From positions 1 through 64,000 of the forward strand of contig JAFQBA010000023.1 in the NCBI GenBank assembly GCA_017416845.1: a stretch of 64,000 nt of DNA, written 5' to 3'. Positions 15,068 through 43,214 of the stretch are shown here, piece by piece. The position numbers and the translations under genes are program-made. The notes beneath the pieces were generated by a model. It searched no databases. It was not told the origin of the DNA and saw only the letters and a list, made by a program, of their open reading frames with translations. The stretch comes from Clostridia bacterium (GTDB taxonomy: Bacteria > Bacillota > Clostridia > UMGS1810). Each line of letters starts with the position of its first letter. The stretch's first letter is position 1.

Positions 15068-17512
15068 ATGGAATCAAGATTTACCGATAAATCCCGTTCA
15101 GCTCTTCGCTTTGCTCATGAAATTGCCGGAGAAACAGGCAGCAATTTTGTGGGAAGTGAACATATTATCGCGGGTATACTCAGAGAAGGTAGCTCAACGG
15201 CAGCCAAAGTCATGGAAGAAATGGGAATAAAATGTGATGAATTTATAACGAGAATTATTGCTCAGGATAATAAGTCATCAAATATGCCAGTACTCGGAAC
15301 AGCTCTTCCTATTACTCCAAGGTGTAAAACGGTTCTTGAAATGAGCTTTAATGAAGCAAAAAAAACCGGTTCGTTACTTATTGCTCCCGAACATATCATA
15401 TTGGCTATTCTTCGTGAGGGACACAGTGTTGGTGTTAAAATTCTTGCAAGCTTTGAAATAGACCCCAACGAATTGGCAAGTCGAATGTTTGAAGGAATAG
15501 AAATTTCACACCCTTCAGGCGGAAACGAAAAAAATTCATCGGATTCCGGGATTAATAACAATCTGTCGCAGTTTGGTACCGATCTTACTCAAATGGCTAA
15601 GGAAAGCAAATTTGATCCCATTGTCGGAAGAGACAAAGAAATAGAGCGAGTTATACAGATTCTTTCCAGACGTACCAAGAATAATCCATGTTTAATCGGA
15701 GAACCCGGTGTCGGAAAAACAGCTGTAGCGGAAGGGCTAGCTCAGAAAATTGCATCGGGAGAAATTCCTGAAATATTAAAGAACAAGAAAATATTTTCTC
15801 TTGATCTTTCTTCAATGATAGCCGGTACAAAATATCGCGGTGAGTTTGAGGAACGTATAAAGAAAGCTCTCGATGAGGTAAAAAAAGACAGCGGAATAAT
15901 TCTTTTCATAGATGAAGTTCACACCCTTATAGGTGCCGGCGCTGCTGAGGGAGCAATGGATGCGGCAAATATTCTTAAGCCTCTTCTTGCAAGGGGAGAA
16001 CTCCAGCTCATCGGTGCTACAACTCTTGATGAGTATAGAAAAAATATTGAAAAGGATGCGGCACTGGAGCGTCGTTTTCAGCCTGTTACGGTAGGTGAGC
16101 CGACTGTTGATGAAACCATAGAAATATTAAAGGGCATTCGTGAAAAGTATGAAAGCCACCACAAGGTTACGATTCTTGATGAAGCCATTGAAAGCGCTGC
16201 AAAGTTATCTGCAAGATATATAACAGACAGATTCCTTCCGGATAAGGCAATCGATCTCATTGATGAGGCATCTTCCAAAATTCGTCTGAAAGCTTTTACT
16301 GCTCCCCCTGAAATCAAGAATATTGAAGAGGCTCTCAAAGATGCTTCGGCAAAAAAACGTGAAGCTATTGAAGCTCAGAATTTTGAAACAGCTGCAACAT
16401 TGCGCGATGAGGAAGAAAAACTAAGACATGAGCTTGAGGAGAAAAAGAAAGAGTGGGAAAAGAACAATTCCAAGGAAGAGTTGTGTGTAACTGAGGATGA
16501 TATTTGTGATATTATTTCCGACTGGACATCGATTCCCGTAAAAAAACTTGCTCTTGAAGAACAAGAAAGACTGAAAAATATGGAATCGATACTCCACAAA
16601 CGCGTTATTGGTCAGGACGAGGCTGTAGTTGCAGTATCTAAAGCAATACGCCGCGGCAGAGTCGGACTTAAGGATCCAAAACGACCAACCGGATCATTTA
16701 TCTTCCTCGGGCCTACAGGTGTTGGTAAAACAGAGCTTTGCAAAGCTTTGGCAGAGTCTATTTTCGGCGATGAAAATGCTATTATACGTATAGATATGAG
16801 TGAGTATATGGATAAGCATAATGTGTCACGTCTGGTTGGCTCACCTCCCGGGTTTGTAGGATATGAAGAAGGTGGACAGCTTACCGAAAAAGTAAGAAGA
16901 AAACCATATTCTGTTGTACTTTTTGATGAAATAGAAAAGGCACATCCCGATGTTTTCAATATTCTACTGCAAATACTTGATGACGGAGTTCTTACCGATT
17001 CCCAGGGCAGAAAGATTGATTTTAAAAATACCGTTGTTATAATGACATCAAATATTGGTGCACGACTTATTACCGAAAAAGCGAAAAACTCACTTGGATT
17101 TGGGACATCATCAGAAAGCGCTGACAGTGATTACGAGTCAATCAGACAAAAAGTCCTTGGCGAACTCAAAAATATATTCAGACCTGAGCTGTTGAATCGA
17201 ATAGATGAAACAATAGTATTTCATAAGCTTACTAAAGAAGATATCAAACAGATTACTGTTATTATGACTGAAGGTCTGAAAAAAAGAATGGAAGCTCTTG
17301 GATATACGCTTACCCTAACCGACAAAGCCATAGAGCATCTTTCAGAAGCCGGATTTGACGAGGTTTATGGTGCAAGACCTCTCAGAAGGGCAATTCAGTC
17401 ACAGGTTGAGGATGCTCTTGCCGATGAAATTCTTACCGGAAGATTTGCGCCCGGAGCAAAGATAACCGTAGATTGTATAGACGGAAAACTCAGCTTTGAT
17501 GGTCAACAATAG
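15068..17512 (+). CDS. clpC: ATP-dependent unfoldase ClpC
   Basis: An 814-residue AAA+ unfoldase that feeds substrates to ClpP. The N domain (1-140) carries two Clp repeats. The first AAA module has GEPGVGKT and [18 protein letters not shown] domain lies around 420-470. The second module has GPTGVGKTE and ends with the arginine-finger region. An ClpP-binding loop like LGFG is seen near residue 676. Length and order are normal for ClpC. It is the last gene of the CtsR-controlled operon, coupled by a 5-nt gap to mcsB. No clpP gene is in the window. Confidence 0.96.
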
Positions 17513-17580: not shown

Positions 17581-17617
17581 AAAACGGCTATGCTCATATG
17601 GGCATAGCCGTTTTTTT
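17581..17617. terminator. Bidirectional terminator between clpC and the capsid cassette
   Basis: AAAACGGCTATGC and GCATAGCCGTTTT arms flank a 7-nt loop, with a T-run on the plus side and TTTTATT on the minus side. It ends the heat-shock operon and, from the other strand, the capsid-like cassette. Confidence 0.88.
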
Positions 17618-17662: not shown

Positions 17663-17935
17663 TCAGTTTAACTCGGGAGCATCAGCATTTTTTGCAAGCA
17701 TGGATGCATGCTCTGCAGCGAAGCTGTCCTGAGCCTGGCTGTTTTTAAGTGCTATAGCATATTTTCTGGGGATTTCCACTTCTTTGCCTCTTGGGACAAT
17801 CATTCCCACGCCGTTTACTGCTACAAAGACATCGTCTCTGTATTTATCATTGTCTTTAAAAAGTCTTACGGATACAAGCTCATTATAATAAGCTTTATCT
17901 TTTTTTGCGATTGATTTGTTAGCTTTTTCTGCCAT
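17663..17935 (-). CDS. Small capsid-associated protein, function unknown
   Basis: A 90-residue protein with a lysine-rich start, a beta-rich middle (VSVRLFKDNDKYRDDVFVAVNG) and the pattern VPRGKEVEIPRKYAIALKNS. Proteins with this pattern are, from memory, found directly after N4-gp56-type capsid genes in prophages; the exact role (head decoration or completion) is unknown to me. It has a GAGGT ribosome site and follows the capsid gene by 25 nt. It is the third and last gene of the cassette; a bidirectional terminator lies downstream. Confidence 0.65.
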   Translation of the reverse strand: MAEKANKSIAKKDKAYYNELVSVRLFKDNDKYRDDVFVAVNGVGMIVPRGKEVEIPRKYAIALKNSQAQDSFAAEHASMLAKNADAPELN

Positions 17936-17960
17936 GTTAATACCTCTTTTCTATTTAATA

Positions 17961-18929
17961 TCAGTTTGATCCGCTTTCAAAGCTCGATGCACTTTCAATT
18001 CTTACCATGTAGTTTTCCACCAGTCTCTCCGCTGTTTTTGTTCCCTTCCAGCCGGCAGTAGCTCTCTGGTTGAGAGGATCTGAAGTTCCGCCTGAACCGA
18101 GCTGTTTTACGATATGTGTAAGACCTCCGCCTGCAAGCTCTGTCACGCCGTAAGCGTTTGCACCGAGAACGATAGTGGAATACACGTCTCTTGCATCGGC
18201 ACCTTCAGCTCCAAAGATTTTGGCTTCGGTGCTTTCTACAAAGCGTACACCGCCAAGCTTCCCGATTTCACCTTCGAAAATTTCGGAAGCTGAGCTGTAT
18301 TTATGCACATCAATCCACTCTTCATCACGCATGAGATCATATGCAACGTCGGGGTGGATGATTGCAACATAGCTTCCGTTAATTTTGGGTGCGTTCTGAG
18401 TTTTCAAGAATCTTGCAGCCTTAAATATGTCATCAACGGTAAGCTTGCAGCTTGCATCAAGATCTTCTCTTGCTTCCTTTCCGCCTGAATACATTACGCT
18501 TGTACCACCATTCAAAACTTCTCTGGTTATGGTATCAAGTGTAGAACCTGCTTGAGCGCCGAGAAGCTTTGTGGTTTCAACAAGAGTGTTGTCAATAGCT
18601 GTAAGCATGAGCATATCGGATATAGTTACATAATAACCATACTGCTCAACAGTTGCATCAACCCTTGTAACAGAAAGTGAGCCGCCGTCAGGAGTTATAC
18701 CTTCACTGAGTGGCTCAGTAGCCTTAGAGAATGGCATAAATTTTCTGAACTGAATGGTTTTGCCGCCGTTTTTGGGTATGGGATGTTTCTGACCAAACTG
18801 GTCATGTACAAGATTGGGTTTTGCATTGTCAATGAGATAGTCGCTGTAATAGGTTCTCATTTCCGCAGAAAGTCCGGCATCTGCGGTAGTATTGGGGTTA
18901 GCATCAAATAAGGTTAAATCTAATTTCAT
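17961..18929 (-). CDS. Major capsid protein, N4-gp56 family
   Basis: A 322-residue protein of the N4-gp56 type, an HK97-fold phage major capsid family. Diagnostic stretches are the N-terminal TYYSDYLIDNAKPNLVHDQF, GGKTIQFRKF, QYGYYVTISD and TREVLNGGTSVMY. The C-terminal half has the KINGSYVAIIHPD region, though here it reads APKINGSY. ATG 18929 suits the AAAGGATG site; the ATG at 18938 overlaps it. The gene sits between a scaffold-like gene and a small protein gene, but no portal, terminase, head protease or tail gene is in the flanks. By eye its base composition is somewhat more GC-rich than clpC. It could be a prophage remnant or a domesticated shell. Confidence 0.85.
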   Translation of the reverse strand: MKLDLTLFDANPNTTADAGLSAEMRTYYSDYLIDNAKPNLVHDQFGQKHPIPKNGGKTIQFRKFMPFSKATEPLSEGITPDGGSLSVTRVDATVEQYGYYVTISDMLMLTAIDNTLVETTKLLGAQAGSTLDTITREVLNGGTSVMYSGGKEAREDLDASCKLTVDDIFKAARFLKTQNAPKINGSYVAIIHPDVAYDLMRDEEWIDVHKYSSASEIFEGEIGKLGGVRFVESTEAKIFGAEGADARDVYSTIVLGANAYGVTELAGGGLTHIVKQLGSGGTSDPLNQRATAGWKGTKTAERLVENYMVRIESASSFESGSN

Positions 18930-18948
18930 TTTTTCCATCCTTTCTTAT

Positions 18949-19515
18949 TTAAAATGTTATTGTTTCTCCTCTTGCAACACGGGTTGCGATTTCAGCTCTT
19001 TGAGCGGGGGTGAGCTTTGAAACATCTGTTTTAAAAAGCGCTGTGCTTTTTCCTGACATTCCGTTTTCCAACGGACGTTTTCCGCGGGCTTTGATTGCTT
19101 CAGCAGTTTTTAGCTTGGCATCAGAAACAGCTTTTTCTATAAGGCTTTTGACAATTTCGTCATGATGCATAGCCAGATATGCACTTTTGAGATCTGCGCC
19201 ACCGCGAAGAAGATTTAAAAATGCAGGGTTTTCCGCTTCTGCTTCAAGATTGAAATCAGGATAGTTTTCTTTGAGAAATTCTCCGTCTTTTATCCATGAG
19301 CGTACTGTTTGCTCCATAAGATAGTCATTTTTCTTTTCCGCAAGAGCTTCTTTTATAGCTTTGTTTTCAGCTTCAAGTTCTTCAATGCGTATGCGGAGAG
19401 CATCTGTATCGCTTTCAATGTCTGACTCTTCAGATGGGTGATGCTCAGGAGTTGTCAGAGAGCTAATATCCTTTTCCGTATCTTCGTTTTTAATGATGTT
19501 TCTTTTTAACTTCAT
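18949..19515 (-). CDS. Phage capsid scaffold-like protein
   Basis: A 188-residue, highly charged protein. Residues about 40-65 form a coiled coil (RIRIEELEAENKAIKEALAE). The C-terminal end (KLTPAQRAEIATRVARGE) matches the tail of scaffold proteins encoded before N4-gp56 capsids, as does RPLENGMSG before it. Scaffolds guide capsid assembly through their C-terminal helix and then leave. The gene has an AAAGGATG site and is the first of the cassette, 19 nt before the capsid gene. The N-terminal 40 residues are Ser/Glu/Asp-rich and probably disordered. No protease domain is seen. Confidence 0.7.
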   Translation of the reverse strand: MKLKRNIIKNEDTEKDISSLTTPEHHPSEESDIESDTDALRIRIEELEAENKAIKEALAEKKNDYLMEQTVRSWIKDGEFLKENYPDFNLEAEAENPAFLNLLRGGADLKSAYLAMHHDEIVKSLIEKAVSDAKLKTAEAIKARGKRPLENGMSGKSTALFKTDVSKLTPAQRAEIATRVARGETITF

Positions 19516-19672
19516 TTTTTCATCCTTTCTTTTGCTTGTGCAAAAATATATTTATATGTCGGTCTTTCCCGGCTGCCGGCAAATTCACAAATAAAGGTAT
19601 TTATTACCTGTGACATTGTGTGTTTTTTGTGATTGCAAGAGTATTATATCGCATAACAAGAATTATTTCTCA

Positions 19673-19702
19673 ATTATAATCAAAAAAATGAAAGTGGCTC
19701 AA
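19673..19702 (-). promoter_or_regulatory. Candidate promoter of the capsid cassette
   Basis: On the minus strand TTGAGC (19697-19702), an 18-base spacer and TATAAT (19673-19678), about 160 nt before the scaffold gene. A second TATAAT lies at 19643-19648 with TTGAGA 19 bases upstream. Between them and the gene are small hairpins (AGGTA/TACCT near 19600, TTTGC/GCAAA near 19540). Confidence 0.4.
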
Positions 19703-19789
19703 AAGCTTGCGGCACAATGGGATTAACGGCATCGTCGGTAAAAAATGGCGTTATACATACTTTTTTTGAGGAAAATATGTCAAATATTG

Positions 19790-20686: not shown

Positions 20687-20754
20687 ATAATATGTATTTT
20701 TATGTATACTGGTATATAATATTTATTTTTCTATAGAAAGAGGAAGTGACACAC

Positions 20755-22020
20755 ATGCTTACCAAAGCACCTAAAGGTACAATGGACATAAAATCGTCTG
20801 ATTCGTACAAATGGCAATATATTGAAGAAGAAATCAGAAAAATATGCAAGCAGTTTGGGGTTAAAGAAGTCAGAACTCCTGTTTTTGAACACACTGAGCT
20901 GTTTCAGCGCGGAGTGGGAGATACCACCGATGTTGTTGAAAAGGAAATGTACACCTTCAACGATAAAGGTGACAGAAGCATCACCCTTCGCCCGGAAGGA
21001 ACTGCCGGAGCTGTTCGAAGCTTCATTGAACATGGTCTCTTCAATGATCCTCAGCCTACAAAGCTTTTCTATCTCATAAGTTGCTATCGTTATGAAAAAC
21101 CTCAGGCAGGCAGATACAGAGAATTTCACCAGTTCGGTGTGGAATATTTCGGAACACAATCCCCTGCCACTGATGCGGAAATGATTTCCCTTCCATGGAC
21201 ATTATATAAAAGACTGGGACTCAAAAATCTCACTCTTAACCTTAACAGTATAGGTTGTCCCAAATGCAGAAAAGAATATAACGAAAAGCTCAAGGATTAT
21301 TTGAAACCCCACTATGACGAGCTTTGCGAAACATGCAAAAACCGTTATGACAGAAACCCCATGAGAATTCTTGACTGTAAGTCAACAATCTGCAAAAATA
21401 TTGTAAAAAATGCACCGCTTCTCATTGACTGTATTTGCGATGAATGCCGAGATCATTTTGAAAATCTAAAAAAATATCTTACTGCAATGGATATTCCTTT
21501 TGAAATTGATCCGCTTATCGTTCGCGGGCTCGACTACTACACCAAAACCGTGTTTGAAATTACAGCCAAAAACGAAAATTCCAACGGCACAATCTGCGGC
21601 GGCGGTCGCTATGATGGTCTTGTGGAAGAACTTGGCGGCGGATATGTTCCTGCTTCAGGCTTTGCTCTCGGAATGGAAAGACTTCTCCTTACTATGGAAG
21701 AACAGGGTATTGAAATTCCTGATGATAATAAACTTGAAATTTATGTGGGTCACATTGGTGATGAGAACTCATTCTTTGCCCAAAAGCTTGTTATGGAGCT
21801 TCGTGAGCTGGGAATTTCGGCAGATCGTGACCACCTTGGCAGAAGCGTTAAGGCTCAAATGAAATATGCCAACAAGCTTGGAGTGAAATATACCATGATT
21901 CTCGGTGATGACGAAATTTCCGAAAAAAAAGCAAGACTAAAAAATATGGATGAGGGCACAGAAACCGAAATTGTGCTTTCAGCTGATGAAATAGCAAAAC
22001 ACATAACACAAAATGCATAA
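20755..22020 (+). CDS. hisS: Histidyl-tRNA synthetase
   Basis: A 421-residue class II synthetase that charges tRNA-His. Class II motifs are visible: RTPVFEHTELF (motif 1), YRYEKPQAGRYREFHQFGVE (motif 2) and GFALGMERLL (motif 3), plus the histidine-specific GLDYYTKTVFE. The C-terminal anticodon-binding domain covers about 325-420. ATG 20755 is chosen because the AGAGGA site abuts the alternative GTG at 20746. aspS follows after 20 nt, the usual Firmicutes hisS-aspS order. Confidence 0.97.
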   Translation: MLTKAPKGTMDIKSSDSYKWQYIEEEIRKICKQFGVKEVRTPVFEHTELFQRGVGDTTDVVEKEMYTFNDKGDRSITLRPEGTAGAVRSFIEHGLFNDPQPTKLFYLISCYRYEKPQAGRYREFHQFGVEYFGTQSPATDAEMISLPWTLYKRLGLKNLTLNLNSIGCPKCRKEYNEKLKDYLKPHYDELCETCKNRYDRNPMRILDCKSTICKNIVKNAPLLIDCICDECRDHFENLKKYLTAMDIPFEIDPLIVRGLDYYTKTVFEITAKNENSNGTICGGGRYDGLVEELGGGYVPASGFALGMERLLLTMEEQGIEIPDDNKLEIYVGHIGDENSFFAQKLVMELRELGISADRDHLGRSVKAQMKYANKLGVKYTMILGDDEISEKKARLKNMDEGTETEIVLSADEIAKHITQNA

Positions 22021-22040
22021 ACCAAACGGAGGACATAAAA

Positions 22041-23831
22041 ATGGAATTTGAAAAATTAAACGGACTTAAACGCACCCACAAATGTGGTGAACTCACAAAG
22101 GAAGACATTGGCAAAGAAGTTGTTGTCATGGGATTTACCGATTCGGTAAGAAACCTTGGCGGTCTTAACTTCATAAATGTTCGTGATATTTCCGGCGTTA
22201 TTCAGACAGTTTTTTCAACCGACGATGCCGAAATGTATGAAAAAGCGGCAAAGGTAAGAGGTGAATATGTTCTTGCAGTTGTCGGTACAGTTGGTGCAAG
22301 AGGCGAAGCTGCTATCAATCCCAACATGAAAACCGGTGAAATAGAAATTGTTGCAAAAGAGCTTCGCATTCTCTCGGCGGCTAAAACCCCCCCGTTCTAT
22401 ATTGTTGAAAACTCTGACGTTAAAGAGGAACTTCGTCTTCAGTACCGTTATCTTGACCTTCGCCGTCCTGATATGCAAAGAAGAATGCTTCTCAGAAGCA
22501 AGGTTGCAAAAATCGTGAGAGACTATTATGAAGAAAACGGTTTTCTCGAAATCGAAACTCCCATTCTTGTAAAAAGCACTCCCGAAGGCGCCCGTGACTA
22601 TCTTGTGCCAAGCCGTGTGAGAAACGGATGCTTCTATGCACTTCCTCAGTCACCTCAACAGTATAAACAGCTTCTCATGCTTTCCGGCATGGACAGATAT
22701 TTCCAGATTGCAAAGTGTTTTCGTGACGAGGATCTCCGTGCTGACCGTCAGCCTGAATTCACTCAGATTGACCTTGAAATGTCCTTTGTTGAAGAAGACG
22801 ATGTTATGACAGTTAACGAAGGTCTCTTAAAGAGAGTTTTCAAGGAGATTAAAGGTATCGATATCGAAACTCCTTTCCTTCGCATGCCCTATCAGGAAGC
22901 AATGGACCGCTTTGGTTCCGATAAGCCCGACACACGTTTTGGTCTTGAAATTACCGACATTTCAAAGGTTGTTGAAGGCTGTGGCTTCGGTGTGTTCACC
23001 GGTGCTCTCGAAAACGGAGGCAGTGTAAGAGCAATCAATGCCAAAGGTCTCGGTGATCAGATTTCACGTAAAAACATCGATGCCCTCGGTGAGTTTGTTA
23101 AAACCTACAAGGCGAAAGGTCTTGCATGGATAAAGGTTAATCCCGATGGTGTTCAGTCACCAATTGCAAAATTCTTTGAAGAAGATCAGTTAAATGCAAT
23201 CCTTGAAGCTACCGATGCACAGGAAAATGACGTTATCTTCATTGTTGCCGACAAAAACAGCGTTGTTTATGCTTCCCTCGGTGCACTTCGTCTGGAAATT
23301 GCAAAAAGATATGACCTTATCGACAAATCAAAATATAACTTCCTTTGGGTTACCGACTTCCCCCTTCTCGAGTATGATGAAGAAGAAAATCGCTATGTTG
23401 CAATGCACCATCCATTCACAGCTCCCAAGGATGAAGACCTCGCTCTTCTTGACACCAATCCGGGCAAGGTGAGAGCAAAGGCTTATGACATCATCTTAAA
23501 CGGTGTTGAACTTGGCGGCGGAAGTATGAGAATCTATAACTCTGATCTTCAACAGAAAATGTTTGAGGTTATCGGTCTTCCTGCTGAAGAAATCGAAGCA
23601 AGATTTGGCTTCCTCATTGATGCATTCAAATATGGTGCTCCCCCTCATGGCGGTATGGCATATGGCTTCGACAGAATGCTTATGCTTCTTGACGGATGTG
23701 AGTCTATCCGTGACGTTATTGCATTCCCCAAGGTTCAGAATGCTTCTGAGCTTATGACGAATGCACCCGATGTTGTTGATGCAAAACAGCTTGAAGAGCT
23801 TGGCATCGCAATTGTTAAAACTGAGGAATAA
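22041..23831 (+). CDS. aspS: Aspartyl-tRNA synthetase, bacterial type
   Basis: A 596-residue class II synthetase of full bacterial length. It has an N-terminal OB-fold anticodon domain (about 1-105), the catalytic core with FRDEDLRADRQPEFTQID and GGMAYGFDRML, and the bacteria-specific GAD insertion domain (about 285-420). It charges tRNA-Asp; whether it also mischarges tRNA-Asn depends on gatCAB and asnS, which are not in the window. The AACGGAGG site and short gap couple it to hisS. An ABC transporter set begins 25 nt downstream, so read-through is possible. Confidence 0.97.
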   Translation: MEFEKLNGLKRTHKCGELTKEDIGKEVVVMGFTDSVRNLGGLNFINVRDISGVIQTVFSTDDAEMYEKAAKVRGEYVLAVVGTVGARGEAAINPNMKTGEIEIVAKELRILSAAKTPPFYIVENSDVKEELRLQYRYLDLRRPDMQRRMLLRSKVAKIVRDYYEENGFLEIETPILVKSTPEGARDYLVPSRVRNGCFYALPQSPQQYKQLLMLSGMDRYFQIAKCFRDEDLRADRQPEFTQIDLEMSFVEEDDVMTVNEGLLKRVFKEIKGIDIETPFLRMPYQEAMDRFGSDKPDTRFGLEITDISKVVEGCGFGVFTGALENGGSVRAINAKGLGDQISRKNIDALGEFVKTYKAKGLAWIKVNPDGVQSPIAKFFEEDQLNAILEATDAQENDVIFIVADKNSVVYASLGALRLEIAKRYDLIDKSKYNFLWVTDFPLLEYDEEENRYVAMHHPFTAPKDEDLALLDTNPGKVRAKAYDIILNGVELGGGSMRIYNSDLQQKMFEVIGLPAEEIEARFGFLIDAFKYGAPPHGGMAYGFDRMLMLLDGCESIRDVIAFPKVQNASELMTNAPDVVDAKQLEELGIAIVKTEE

Positions 23832-38322: not shown

Positions 38323-38395
38323 GGGAGCTTAGCTCAGCTGGGAGAGCATCTGCCTTACAAGCAGAGGGTCACAGGTTCGAGCCCTGTAGCTCCCA
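38323..38395 (+). tRNA. tRNA-Val (anticodon TAC)
   Basis: Complete 73-nt cloverleaf with acceptor GGGAGCT/AGCTCCC, D arm, anticodon stem TCTGC/GCAGA around loop CTTACAA, and T arm with GGTTCGAGCC. The anticodon TAC reads GUA and other valine codons. CCA is not encoded. Confidence 0.97.
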
Positions 38396-38413
38396 TTTTA
38401 AAATTTAATATTC

Positions 38414-38486
38414 GCTGGTGTAGCTCAATTGGCAGAGCAGCTGATTTGTAATCAGCAGGTTGCGGGTTCAAGTCCCATCACCAGCT
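38414..38486 (+). tRNA. tRNA-Thr (anticodon TGT)
   Basis: Complete 73-nt cloverleaf with acceptor GCTGGTG/CACCAGC, anticodon stem GCTGA/TCAGC around loop TTTGTAA, and T arm GGTTCAAGTCC. The anticodon TGT reads ACA and other threonine codons. CCA is not encoded. Confidence 0.97.
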
Positions 38487-38489
38487 TAT

Positions 38490-38574
38490 GGGGAGGTTCC
38501 CGAGTGGCCAAAGGGGACAGACTGTAAATCTGCTGCATCTTGCTTCGGTGGTTCGAATCCGCCCCTCCCCACCA
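38490..38574 (+). tRNA. tRNA-Tyr (anticodon GTA)
   Basis: An 85-nt cloverleaf with acceptor GGGGAGG/CCTCCCC, anticodon loop CTGTAAA, a long variable arm as in class II tRNAs and T arm GGTTCGAATCC. CCA is encoded at 38572-38574, unlike in its two neighbours. Confidence 0.97.
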
Positions 38575-38577
38575 AAG

Positions 38578-38616
38578 AAGAACCGTAATTTTGATACAAA
38601 GTTACGGTTCTTTTTC
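38578..38616. terminator. Terminator of the tRNA cluster
   Basis: AAGAACCGTAA and TTACGGTTCTT arms with a 13-nt loop and a T-run on the plus side. It abuts the stop codon of the converging fic gene and may serve both strands. Confidence 0.85.
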
Positions 38617-39662
38617 TATGTGTTTCTTGTGTAAAATGTTTTCTTGCCTTGACCATGTCTTTCGATAAAACCTTCTTCAACAAGTGTTTTGAGGGAATTG
38701 ACGATGGAGGTTTTTTTGACCGAAGGAACAAGCTCCTCGATGTCACTCTTTGTGAACTTGCCGATTTTGGATTGGATAGCCTTACGCACAAGCTCAACAG
38801 CCGGGAGCTTTTCATCGAAAATATCTACACGTTCTTCAAACTCACGATAAGCTGAAAGGATGATTCCAAGAATGTATTTGATAAAATCACCGGGGTCATT
38901 CTTTTCTTCGTGCCAACCATAACCTGAACGCTCAAGAACATCATAATATTTTTGCTTGGTTCGTTCGATTTTACTTTCAATACTGATGTATTTTCCTACC
39001 ACATAACCACAGCGGTAGAGAAGCAAAGTTGTCAGAAGTCTTGACATTCTGCCGTTGCCGTCATTGAAGGGATGAATACACAAAAAGTCGTTAATGAAAA
39101 TCGGAATCAGCACCAACGGGTCAATGACACATCCATCAATTGCCCGGTTGAAGCTCTCGCAGATTGCATCAATGGCGTCGGGAGTTTCATAAGGCTCAAG
39201 TGGCATAAACCGAACAAACTGCGTTCCGTCGGGGCGTGTTTCGGCAACAAAGTTTTGTGTTGTTTTAAATCTGCCACCGATGGATTTATCGGAATACTGA
39301 TATAGGTCACGATGTAATTGCAAAATATATGATGATTGCAAAGGAATATATTCATAGCTTTCGTGAATCGTATTCAGCACATCATGGTAACCCATGATTT
39401 CTTCCTCATCACGGTTGCGTGGAGTGGTTTTGTCATCACAAAGCTGCTTGATTCTTGTGCTTGTGGTTACAATGCCTTCGATTTTGTTGGATGCTTCGGT
39501 GCTTTGCACCTTTGCGATTTCAACCAATCGGTCAAGCACTGCAGGCTTTTGCCTTAAAAACAATTCCTGACGTCCTTTGTATTCATGTATCTGTGCAACG
39601 AGTCCCAGAATTTCACTATCCCAGGAGATATTTCGTAAATTATCGTAGTTAAAGGCTCTCAT
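38616..39662 (-). CDS. Fic family protein, class II (self-inhibited)
   Basis: A 348-residue Fic protein. The catalytic motif HPFNDGNGR lies at residues 197-205, so AMP or another nucleotide monophosphate transfer is likely. The N-terminal inhibitory motif (S/T)xxxE(G/N) is SNKIEG at 58-63, with Glu62 expected to block ATP placement; this makes it a class II Fic. The C-terminal 70 residues look like a winged helix (KFTKSDIEELVPSVKKTSIVNSL). Such proteins are usually autonomous and have no separate antitoxin. An array of GGTCGAATAT sites lies just upstream, which suggests that the winged helix binds it and regulates its own gene. The target of modification is unknown. Confidence 0.92.
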   Translation of the reverse strand: MRAFNYDNLRNISWDSEILGLVAQIHEYKGRQELFLRQKPAVLDRLVEIAKVQSTEASNKIEGIVTTSTRIKQLCDDKTTPRNRDEEEIMGYHDVLNTIHESYEYIPLQSSYILQLHRDLYQYSDKSIGGRFKTTQNFVAETRPDGTQFVRFMPLEPYETPDAIDAICESFNRAIDGCVIDPLVLIPIFINDFLCIHPFNDGNGRMSRLLTTLLLYRCGYVVGKYISIESKIERTKQKYYDVLERSGYGWHEEKNDPGDFIKYILGIILSAYREFEERVDIFDEKLPAVELVRKAIQSKIGKFTKSDIEELVPSVKKTSIVNSLKTLVEEGFIERHGQGKKTFYTRNT

Positions 39663-42188: not shown

Positions 42189-43214
42189 ATGACTGATAAA
42201 AAAACATTCGGTTCGTTCATAAAAATGAAACGAATCGAGAAAAATTATTCACAAAAAGACTTGGCGAGAATGCTGTTTATTACCGAAGGAGCGGTGAGCA
42301 AATGGGAGAGAGGTGTGTCATATCCAGACATAACTTTAATTTGCGATATATGCCGTGTTCTTGAAATAAGTGAACATGAATTGATTACTGGCTCAACTGA
42401 CATGGATGAACGAAAGCTTAAGTATGAAGCCCGGAAATTCCGTGTGATTCGCGGCACTTGGTTTTGGATTCCGACAATATCGTATATAGTTGCACTCTTA
42501 ACTTGTTTTATTTGCAATCTTGCCCTAAACCATACTTTATCCTGGTTTTTTGTTGTGTTAAGTGCATTGCTTTGTGCCTACTCCTTTATTCCAACATTTA
42601 CATACTTTTTTAAATTGAGAAAACTGCTGGTTTTTACAGTTACAAGTTTTTCTTCAATTTGCTTACTTTTGTACGCCTGTGCGGCATACACGAACACTTT
42701 GTTTTGGGTTCCAACAGCATGCATCGCAACTTTAATGGGATACACCTTGTTGTTTCTTCCTATGCTGTTATCTGAAACAAGAATTAAAATTTTCAGAGTT
42801 GTAATCTCATTTGTGCTGACATTCTTTCTCGCAATTTTACTGCTGCAAAGTATACATGTATGGCAACAATTTATGCTCATGCCTGCAATAAAGATGACCT
42901 GCTATGGATTTATTCCAGTTATACTTTGTAGTGTTATATGTATGTTTCGTTTTGATTCGTTTATCAAGGCAGGCATATGCACATTACTTGGCACTGTGGC
43001 ATATTATTTCACCGGGCATATAGTGAATTATTTATTTAGCTTAACAGAAAATCATTATAAAATTGATTTTTATAACTGGGAGCAGTATACAAGTGGCAAT
43101 GTTCTCTTTATCATTTTATTGTTGTTTTTGCTTGTGAGCGTTGTATTTATCGGTATTGGTATTTATAGATTTTATAAAAACCGGGCAGTACCTTCAGTCG
43201 ATTCGCGAGCATAG
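42189..43214 (+). CDS. XRE-type regulator fused to a membrane domain
   Basis: A 341-residue protein with an N-terminal XRE helix-turn-helix (about 8-62, with QKDLARMLFITEGAVSKWERG) and a C-terminal region with about eight membrane spans (about 90-330). It would be a membrane-tethered DNA-binding protein, possibly sensing an envelope or ligand signal; this build is common in Firmicutes but poorly studied. GGAGG precedes the ATG. It is transcribed towards the alanine symporter-like gene, whose promoter carries a large inverted repeat, so that promoter is a reasonable target (inference). Confidence 0.86.
   Translation: MTDKKTFGSFIKMKRIEKNYSQKDLARMLFITEGAVSKWERGVSYPDITLICDICRVLEISEHELITGSTDMDERKLKYEARKFRVIRGTWFWIPTISYIVALLTCFICNLALNHTLSWFFVVLSALLCAYSFIPTFTYFFKLRKLLVFTVTSFSSICLLLYACAAYTNTLFWVPTACIATLMGYTLLFLPMLLSETRIKIFRVVISFVLTFFLAILLLQSIHVWQQFMLMPAIKMTCYGFIPVILCSVICMFRFDSFIKAGICTLLGTVAYYFTGHIVNYLFSLTENHYKIDFYNWEQYTSGNVLFIILLLFLLVSVVFIGIGIYRFYKNRAVPSVDSRA

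Follow-up and report, generated by a model that had tools for sequence, protein, structure and literature searches.

The three-gene capsid cassette in the 64-kb window (the whole stretch of DNA analysed, 64,000 nucleotides) is likely the head locus of a gene transfer agent (GTA) whose genes are scattered over the genome and inherited vertically; the agent would descend from a domesticated Clostridia podovirus with a capsid of the N4-gp56 group. A sequence-only reading of this DNA had described an orphan cassette and had named a dispersed gene-transfer system among its options. The orphan description fails, because matching terminase and portal operons are present in single copies in the same genome; the gene-transfer option is favoured, since these genes are found genus-wide, are congruent with the host and share a promoter module. 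The evidence is stronger for domestication of a nearly complete set of phage particle genes than for the transfer function itself.

The putative agent would comprise at least three loci. The first, in the window, encodes the scaffold, the capsid and a small head protein. The second (G000:C131) would contribute TerS and TerL together with a prophage-type S24 repressor and a divergent zinc-finger gene. The third (G000:C5, beside ligA) would supply the portal, a Prp-type protease, tail-fibre-like proteins, a holin, an endolysin, a connector and an internal virion protein.

Few lineages are known to have GTAs, and the report of one of podovirus type, FpGTA of Faecalibacterium, dates from as recently as January 2026 (Borodovich et al. 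2026; PMC12946183). If our interpretation is true, a separate GTA domestication took place in other gut Clostridia, with genes so dispersed that prophage finders likely miss such elements. The shared promoter would then make it simple to find all genes of the set in a genome, and would give a handle on the joint switching of dispersed particle genes. VLP data point to GTA-like packaging in several Clostridia for which the genes were not identified (PMC12946183), and elements of this kind may be its genetic basis.

The capsid cassette in the window

The window carries three minus-strand genes as first read, with exact coordinates and family matches far above chance. The terminator, the upstream promoter and the host flanks proposed in the sequence-only reading are also recovered, the latter being clpC on one side and DUF4234/DUF2752 genes with hisS-aspS on the other. 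The features are as follows.

15068 to 17512, plus strand: clpC, host flank, one anchor of the conserved insertion site
17581 to 17617, no strand: hairpin and T-run (terminator, from sequence) between the converging clpC and cassette ends
17663 to 17935, minus strand: small conserved head-associated protein gene, 90 aa (phrog_15239, E=8e-21)
17961 to 18938, minus strand: N4-gp56 family major capsid protein gene, 325 aa (TIGR04387, E=1e-93; phrog_1357, E=4e-96)
18949 to 19515, minus strand: head scaffold protein gene, 188 aa (phrog_13908, E=7e-36)
19634 to 19717, minus strand: promoter module upstream of the scaffold (profile R1, 32.2 bits, E=2.6e-7 genome-wide)
20752 to 23831, plus strand: hisS-aspS, host flank, the other anchor of the conserved site

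The scaffold gene is homologous and first in the cassette across all relatives, and the window protein is shortened at its N-terminus compared with them (268-304 aa). The gene for the 90-aa protein always follows the capsid gene directly, in phages as in relatives. Because AGAAAGG abuts the first ATG, translation of the capsid probably begins at the second ATG (18929), with the 325-aa reading-frame call beginning upstream. The GC content and ribosome sites of the cassette are similar to those of the surrounding host genes.

Reading the open reading frames of the 64-kb window by eye revealed no gene for a portal, terminase, tail protein or integrase. A phage HMM set matched only the three cassette genes plus one S24 profile, the latter in an unrelated HTH membrane protein (42189-43214); the earlier impression that the window holds no other phage gene is thereby confirmed. 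Elsewhere in the window, a tRNA-Val-Thr-Tyr cluster (38323-38574) is followed on the opposite strand by what reads as a Fic-family-like gene (38616-39662).

Terminase and portal loci in the same genome

The window genome (G000, 3.3 Mb) was searched with terminase and portal queries taken from a relative (G046, L041). It contains a single TerL gene (C131:12268-13605) and a single portal gene (C5:39910-41442), and its particle genes are dispersed over contigs C3 (capsid cassette), C131 (TerL) and C5 (portal). The genomes are draft MAGs, 71-91% complete, in which further loci or a helper phage supplying parts may be missed. The TerL gene is accompanied by a TerS-like gene and an S24 repressor gene (PF00717, 2e-22), while the portal heads an operon of about 9 kb with the following genes.

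Portal, first gene (phrog_156, 2e-80)
Prp-type protease (PF04327, 3e-12)
Two long proteins (the G001 ortholog of the first one matches tail-fibre families)
Holin-like protein
Endolysin (phrog_7698, 6e-53)
118-aa protein (phrog_12105)
Internal virion protein (phrog_511, 1e-24)
327-aa protein

Beyond the portal, protease and endolysin, these roles are tentative. The operon adjoins ligA, a TPR protein and a WG-repeat protein, and the same neighbours are present in G004 and G001. In compact phage-like contigs of other Clostridia, the gene order is TerS-TerL-portal-protease-scaffold-capsid-small, with the connector, internal virion and 327-aa families downstream. No integrase was seen near the three structural loci among the annotated open reading frames and flanks, nor were replication genes of an active prophage among the annotated open reading frames.

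Distribution, inheritance and selection

The capsid is encoded in all five other genomes of the genus (85-93% identity) and in two further genera, represented by G007 and G012 (about 77% identity). The portal carriers are the same set, and the portal is missing in seven sibling genomes from the family. The insertion site is also kept: hisS-aspS adjoins the cassette in G002, G003 and G004, and clpC adjoins its small-protein end in G003 (L038). The S24 and ligA-TPR-WG neighbourhoods are likewise conserved sites.

In the TerL tree, the carriers form one clade (100/100) with the branching (((((G000,G004),G002),G001),G005),G007),G012. The host AspRS tree unites the same genera (86/84), and the taxa that both trees contain branch identically. 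Trees of the capsid (99/98) and the portal (97/99), which are encoded at different loci, recover the same carrier clade and leave some nodes unresolved. Judged by these trees, the element has most likely passed vertically from a common ancestor into three genera of uncultured gut Clostridia.

The dN/dS ratios, which are approximate because dS is near saturation in many pairs, are 0.05-0.09 for the capsid, 0.04-0.09 for TerL and 0.07-0.10 for the portal, compared with 0.03-0.09 for hisS and 0.03-0.06 for aspS. Against the closest species, the values are 0.05, 0.04 and 0.07, respectively, and 0.03 for both hisS and aspS. Evolution is faster in the scaffold (0.16-0.25), TerS, internal virion protein and endolysin than in the capsid, TerL and portal, and the particle genes are intact in eight species. 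These ratios indicate that the capsid, TerL and portal are under purifying selection similar to that on housekeeping genes, and for the capsid they bear out the selection that had been proposed for the cassette.

Terminase small subunit and control region

Phage-type TerS proteins start with a helix-turn-helix (HTH), as seen from the matches to PF05225 (HTH_psq) in G009 (1e-6) and L155 (6e-7); TerS of G007 gives a weak HTH trace (0.002). No HTH profile match was obtained for TerS of the five genus members examined (5/5), of G012 or of the FpGTA candidate described below, and the TerS of FpGTA is also without an obvious DNA-binding domain according to its authors (PMC12946183). By these profile matches, TerS of the window lineage has lost the DNA-binding HTH of its phage relatives, so that packaging would be expected at random host sites and not at a pac site.

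A domesticated particle could also serve killing or other signalling, in a PBSX-like or tailocin-like manner, and perhaps package DNA without delivering it. All genomic signs of domestication would look alike in that case, and the authors of FpGTA call delivery by FpGTA itself unproven (PMC12946183). However, the terminase and portal are strongly constrained and are kept with the scaffold and capsid, which argues for DNA packaging and against a tail-only weapon, and a TerS that has lost its HTH is consistent with non-specific packaging. We therefore consider such a particle unlikely, and a gene transfer agent remains our preferred interpretation.

At the terminase locus, the S24 gene is divergent from the small zinc-finger gene, and similar small proteins are encoded beside the terminase of compact phages. 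The operators TGTTGACAAAGACACA and TGTCGATAACGAAACA of the S24 control region are conserved with 0-1 mismatch in the four genomes inspected, and in the sequence they frame the TTGACA/TATTAT promoter of the zinc-finger gene. In its layout, this resembles an immunity region retained from the ancestral prophage. As a regulon-wide site, the operators were rejected: two are present in the S24 control region of each of the four genomes and none at the other loci, and a link from S24 to those loci would be a guess. The motif CACACAATGCC occurs upstream of S24 and in the G004 scaffold leader (L068:11992, L070:7777, L073:8067, L031:11165), and shorter versions of it are found in other scaffold leaders.

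Arrangements in other genomes

The loci are arranged differently among the carriers. In G005, TerS-TerL and the capsid cassette are lined up with a lipoprotein gene between them; in G007 and G012, the cassette comes first and is followed by TerS-TerL. The portal is at a separate place in all of these, mid-contig in G007 and G012. In G001, TerL and the portal are 44 kb apart on one contig, with the capsid on another. The mid-contig pieces in G007 and G012 and the 44-kb gap in G001 show that assembly breaks do not account for the dispersal, which by comparison of these gene orders occurred stepwise.

The sequence-only reading had held that portal, terminase or tail genes next to the cassette in related genomes would make it a decaying prophage piece. 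TerL is indeed adjacent to the capsid in G005, G007 and G012, but decay is not seen, as the genes are intact and the portal lies at another locus. That the pieces belong to an old, rearranged and decaying prophage and were kept by chance would agree with their podovirus origin, with the genus-dependent arrangement and with the loss of one RepA_N copy in G000, where the promoter alone remains. Nevertheless, intact genes in eight species with housekeeping-like dN/dS, congruence with the host tree, the conserved shared promoter module and presence throughout the genus make this account very improbable.

Similar layouts were observed outside the carrier clade. In genomes of other families (G019, L045 and L081; G031, L044 and L080; G043, L042, L082 and L083), the terminase, portal and capsid are non-adjacent or on different contigs. 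Another clade (L105 and L115 of Ca. Heritagella, L113 of Ca. Gallacutalibacter, and L109) has the order scaffold-capsid-small-C118-IVP-E327, with the terminase and portal absent within the fetched flanks; it is possibly a further dispersed element. The capsid cassettes of L093 (Massiliimalia timonensis), L101 and L137 have no adjoining terminase or portal in about 10 kb of flank. The capsids of L039:9495-10781 (G012), L041, L042, L044 and L045 contain an extra domain of some 70-100 aa, inserted after about position 242, which is absent from the window protein.

Predicted capsid structure

An AlphaFold (AF2) model of the window capsid built from a 70-sequence alignment reached a pLDDT of 77, whereas a 12-sequence alignment gave only 50. 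Its best PDB matches are the podophage capsids of Pan3, DEV and N4 (E about 1e-16), and encapsulin shells rank far lower (rank 38, E=1.7e-11). The model supports an HK97-type fold.

The fold, the isolation of the cassette within the window and the presence of encapsulins among the structure matches are what an encapsulin-like protein nanocompartment from a phage capsid would show, as the earlier reading had entertained; yet the portal, terminase, protease, holin, endolysin and virion genes are co-inherited under the shared promoter module with packaging and lysis genes under selection, the scaffold is kept, the nearest structures are N4-type podophage capsids and the operon has no cargo-like gene, leaving this option scarcely tenable.

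A promoter module shared with RepA_N genes

The three loci of the proposed transfer agent have a common upstream layout, consisting of a GC-rich hairpin (in most copies), TTTCGTTTTTTTG, about 35 nt, and TATAAT. The window copy contains a terminator-like hairpin remnant, TTTCATTTTTTTG, about 35 nt, and TATAAT, and the scaffold and portal loci of G007 have near-identical module sequences (TCGTAGGCGAAAAGTG.CACCCAAAAAGGATA.AAT). An RNA-structure reading of the module was rejected: RNAalifold gave no consensus pairs and Rfam no family at the module. It is therefore regarded here as a sequence module, most copies of which include a terminator-like hairpin.

Profile R1 covers 105 positions and was trained on ten sites, all from species other than G000. 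Applied to the whole of G000 (3.3 Mb), it found seven sites at 25.8-34.8 bits (E at most 3e-5), the next-best match scoring 17.2 bits (E=0.012). In eight family members that are without the portal or, in G009, have an unrelated prophage-like version, the best match scored 22.3 bits. Three of the seven sites are those of the scaffold (window), TerS and portal loci; these are orthologous to G004 training sites, so that part of the R1 signal is shared ancestry, and the out-of-sample sites are the RepA_N sites and the G003 portal site only.

Two further sites in G000 (C13 and C76) precede intact RepA_N + DUF6017 genes (PF06970, 2e-20 and 2e-24), whose RepA_N proteins also match phrog_7882 (DnaD-like helicase loader). 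At the site on C5 the gene is gone, and the sequence is nearly identical to the G004 RepA_N promoter. In G004 and G003, R1 matches outside the training set lie directly before RepA_N genes, and in G003 also before the portal position. By sequence, the module is common to the structural loci and the RepA_N genes, which would thus be co-expressed.

The remaining site (C80) precedes a surface-protein gene with SLH and heparinase-like domains. This gene (L288:1358-4477) and its counterpart on G004:C81 encode a 1039-aa SLH / heparinase-like / F5-8C surface protein, with the same module in front. Module matches also lie beside ctsR at G004:C72:10020-10124 (L318) and, more weakly, on G005:C168, with no clear downstream gene.

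A satellite or helper element giving capsids to another mobile element, also among the options of the sequence-only reading, is scarcely probable either: capsid genes can be borrowed by satellites, and RepA_N-type initiators, common on plasmids and ICEs, carry the same module, but integrase or mobile-element genes were not seen at the annotated flanks, and the full packaging and lysis set is host-inherited; a helper role is not needed.

A broader reading is that N4-gp56 podoviruses were domesticated into GTAs in Clostridia more than once, and that here the phage genome was fragmented into a host regulon, in which a dedicated terminator-insulated promoter unites the separately placed structural pieces and also drives RepA_N/DnaD-type initiators, as possible GTA activators or as a replication-packaging link. 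We offer it tentatively and hold it to be doubtful as a whole. If it is true, such a control principle is undescribed for any GTA in the literature searched, where no GTA paper mentioning RepA_N was found.

Proposed mode of action

For the dispersed gene transfer agent, the likely trigger would be relief of S24 repression, probably by SOS cleavage, by analogy with the S24 family. The shared module at each locus and before the RepA_N/DnaD-like genes would turn the pieces on together. The scaffold would assemble small heads on the portal and TerL would pack DNA, presumably starting from random host sites since TerS is without its HTH. Finally, the holin and endolysin may lyse the producer, and the short-tailed particles may carry DNA to kin.

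Comparison with known systems

FpGTA consists of two operons, and its particles have been demonstrated, with heads of about 40 nm that hold 8.4-8.9 kb of even host DNA; an integrase or replication module is not reported (PMC12946183). As the FpGTA I candidate, we took a ten-ORF operon of homologous genes between Faecalibacterium host genes (L167, about 10 kb), identified by gene content and size and not by the accessions of that paper. An F. prausnitzii locus (L161) was rejected for this role, as its HTH-bearing TerS and 1645-aa ejection protein mark a prophage. The N4-gp56 capsid gene is found in 30 of 31 Faecalibacterium genomes.

FpGTA and the window element have homologous TerS, TerL, portal, scaffold, N4-gp56 capsid, small protein, connector, IVP and E327. 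Both are of podovirus type, with TerS lacking the HTH and structural genes at more than one chromosomal place. However, FpGTA I is one compact operon, whereas the window element occupies at least three loci and has the shared promoter module, the S24/zinc-finger control region and the RepA_N-type genes. FpGTA branches with a Faecalibacterium prophage in the TerL phylogeny, and a topology that unites FpGTA and the window element in a single clade is rejected by the AU test (p=1.75e-12). The two are therefore separate domestications with shared ancestry at the phage level.

The phage ancestor of RcGTA was siphovirus-like and, as far as known, is unrelated to the N4-gp56 podovirus group; its hosts and control proteins are also different. 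RcGTA (Rhodogtaviriformidae, Alphaproteobacteria) is likewise vertical, multi-locus, caudoviricete-derived and co-diversified with its hosts (PMC9662315). GTAs are defined by caudoviricete-derived structural proteins that are endogenized, often at multiple loci, and vertically inherited with host co-diversification; further, their genome is not fully packageable, mostly random host DNA is encapsidated, and the DNA is delivered to cells (PMC9662315). The window element shows the first three of these features, those accessible to sequence analysis: its capsid, portal, TerL and scaffold, as well as its endolysin and internal virion protein, have matches in phage families, the three separated structural loci lie in host context, and vertical inheritance is indicated by the common TerL and AspRS branching, the clade recovered with capsid, TerL and portal, and the dN/dS ratios. 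The dispersal would preclude co-packaging of all loci unless they happen to be close.

Encapsulins have an HK97-type fold shell like the window capsid, but packaging and lysis genes are retained in the window lineage, where the portal, terminase, holin and endolysin are co-inherited and the operon has no cargo gene. Among the annotated open reading frames near the three loci, there is no contiguous genome with integrase and replication genes as in an active prophage. The capsid gene is common to the window element and the N4-gp56 podoviruses of Clostridia and Bacillus, with 40% capsid identity to Bacillus phage Page. Gut viral and prophage contigs are contiguous, with the order TerS-TerL-portal-protease-scaffold-MCP-small, whereas the window element is dispersed, and several phage-type TerS examined keep the HTH that the window lineage is without. 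Capsid identity to viral contigs is at most 71% over the full length, compared with 85-93% inside the host genus. A 4.8-kb 'viral' contig (L241, IMGVR_UViG_3300032167_007297) groups with the G012 capsid inside the host-inherited clade, and is probably a fragment of such a host-inherited element classed as a virus.
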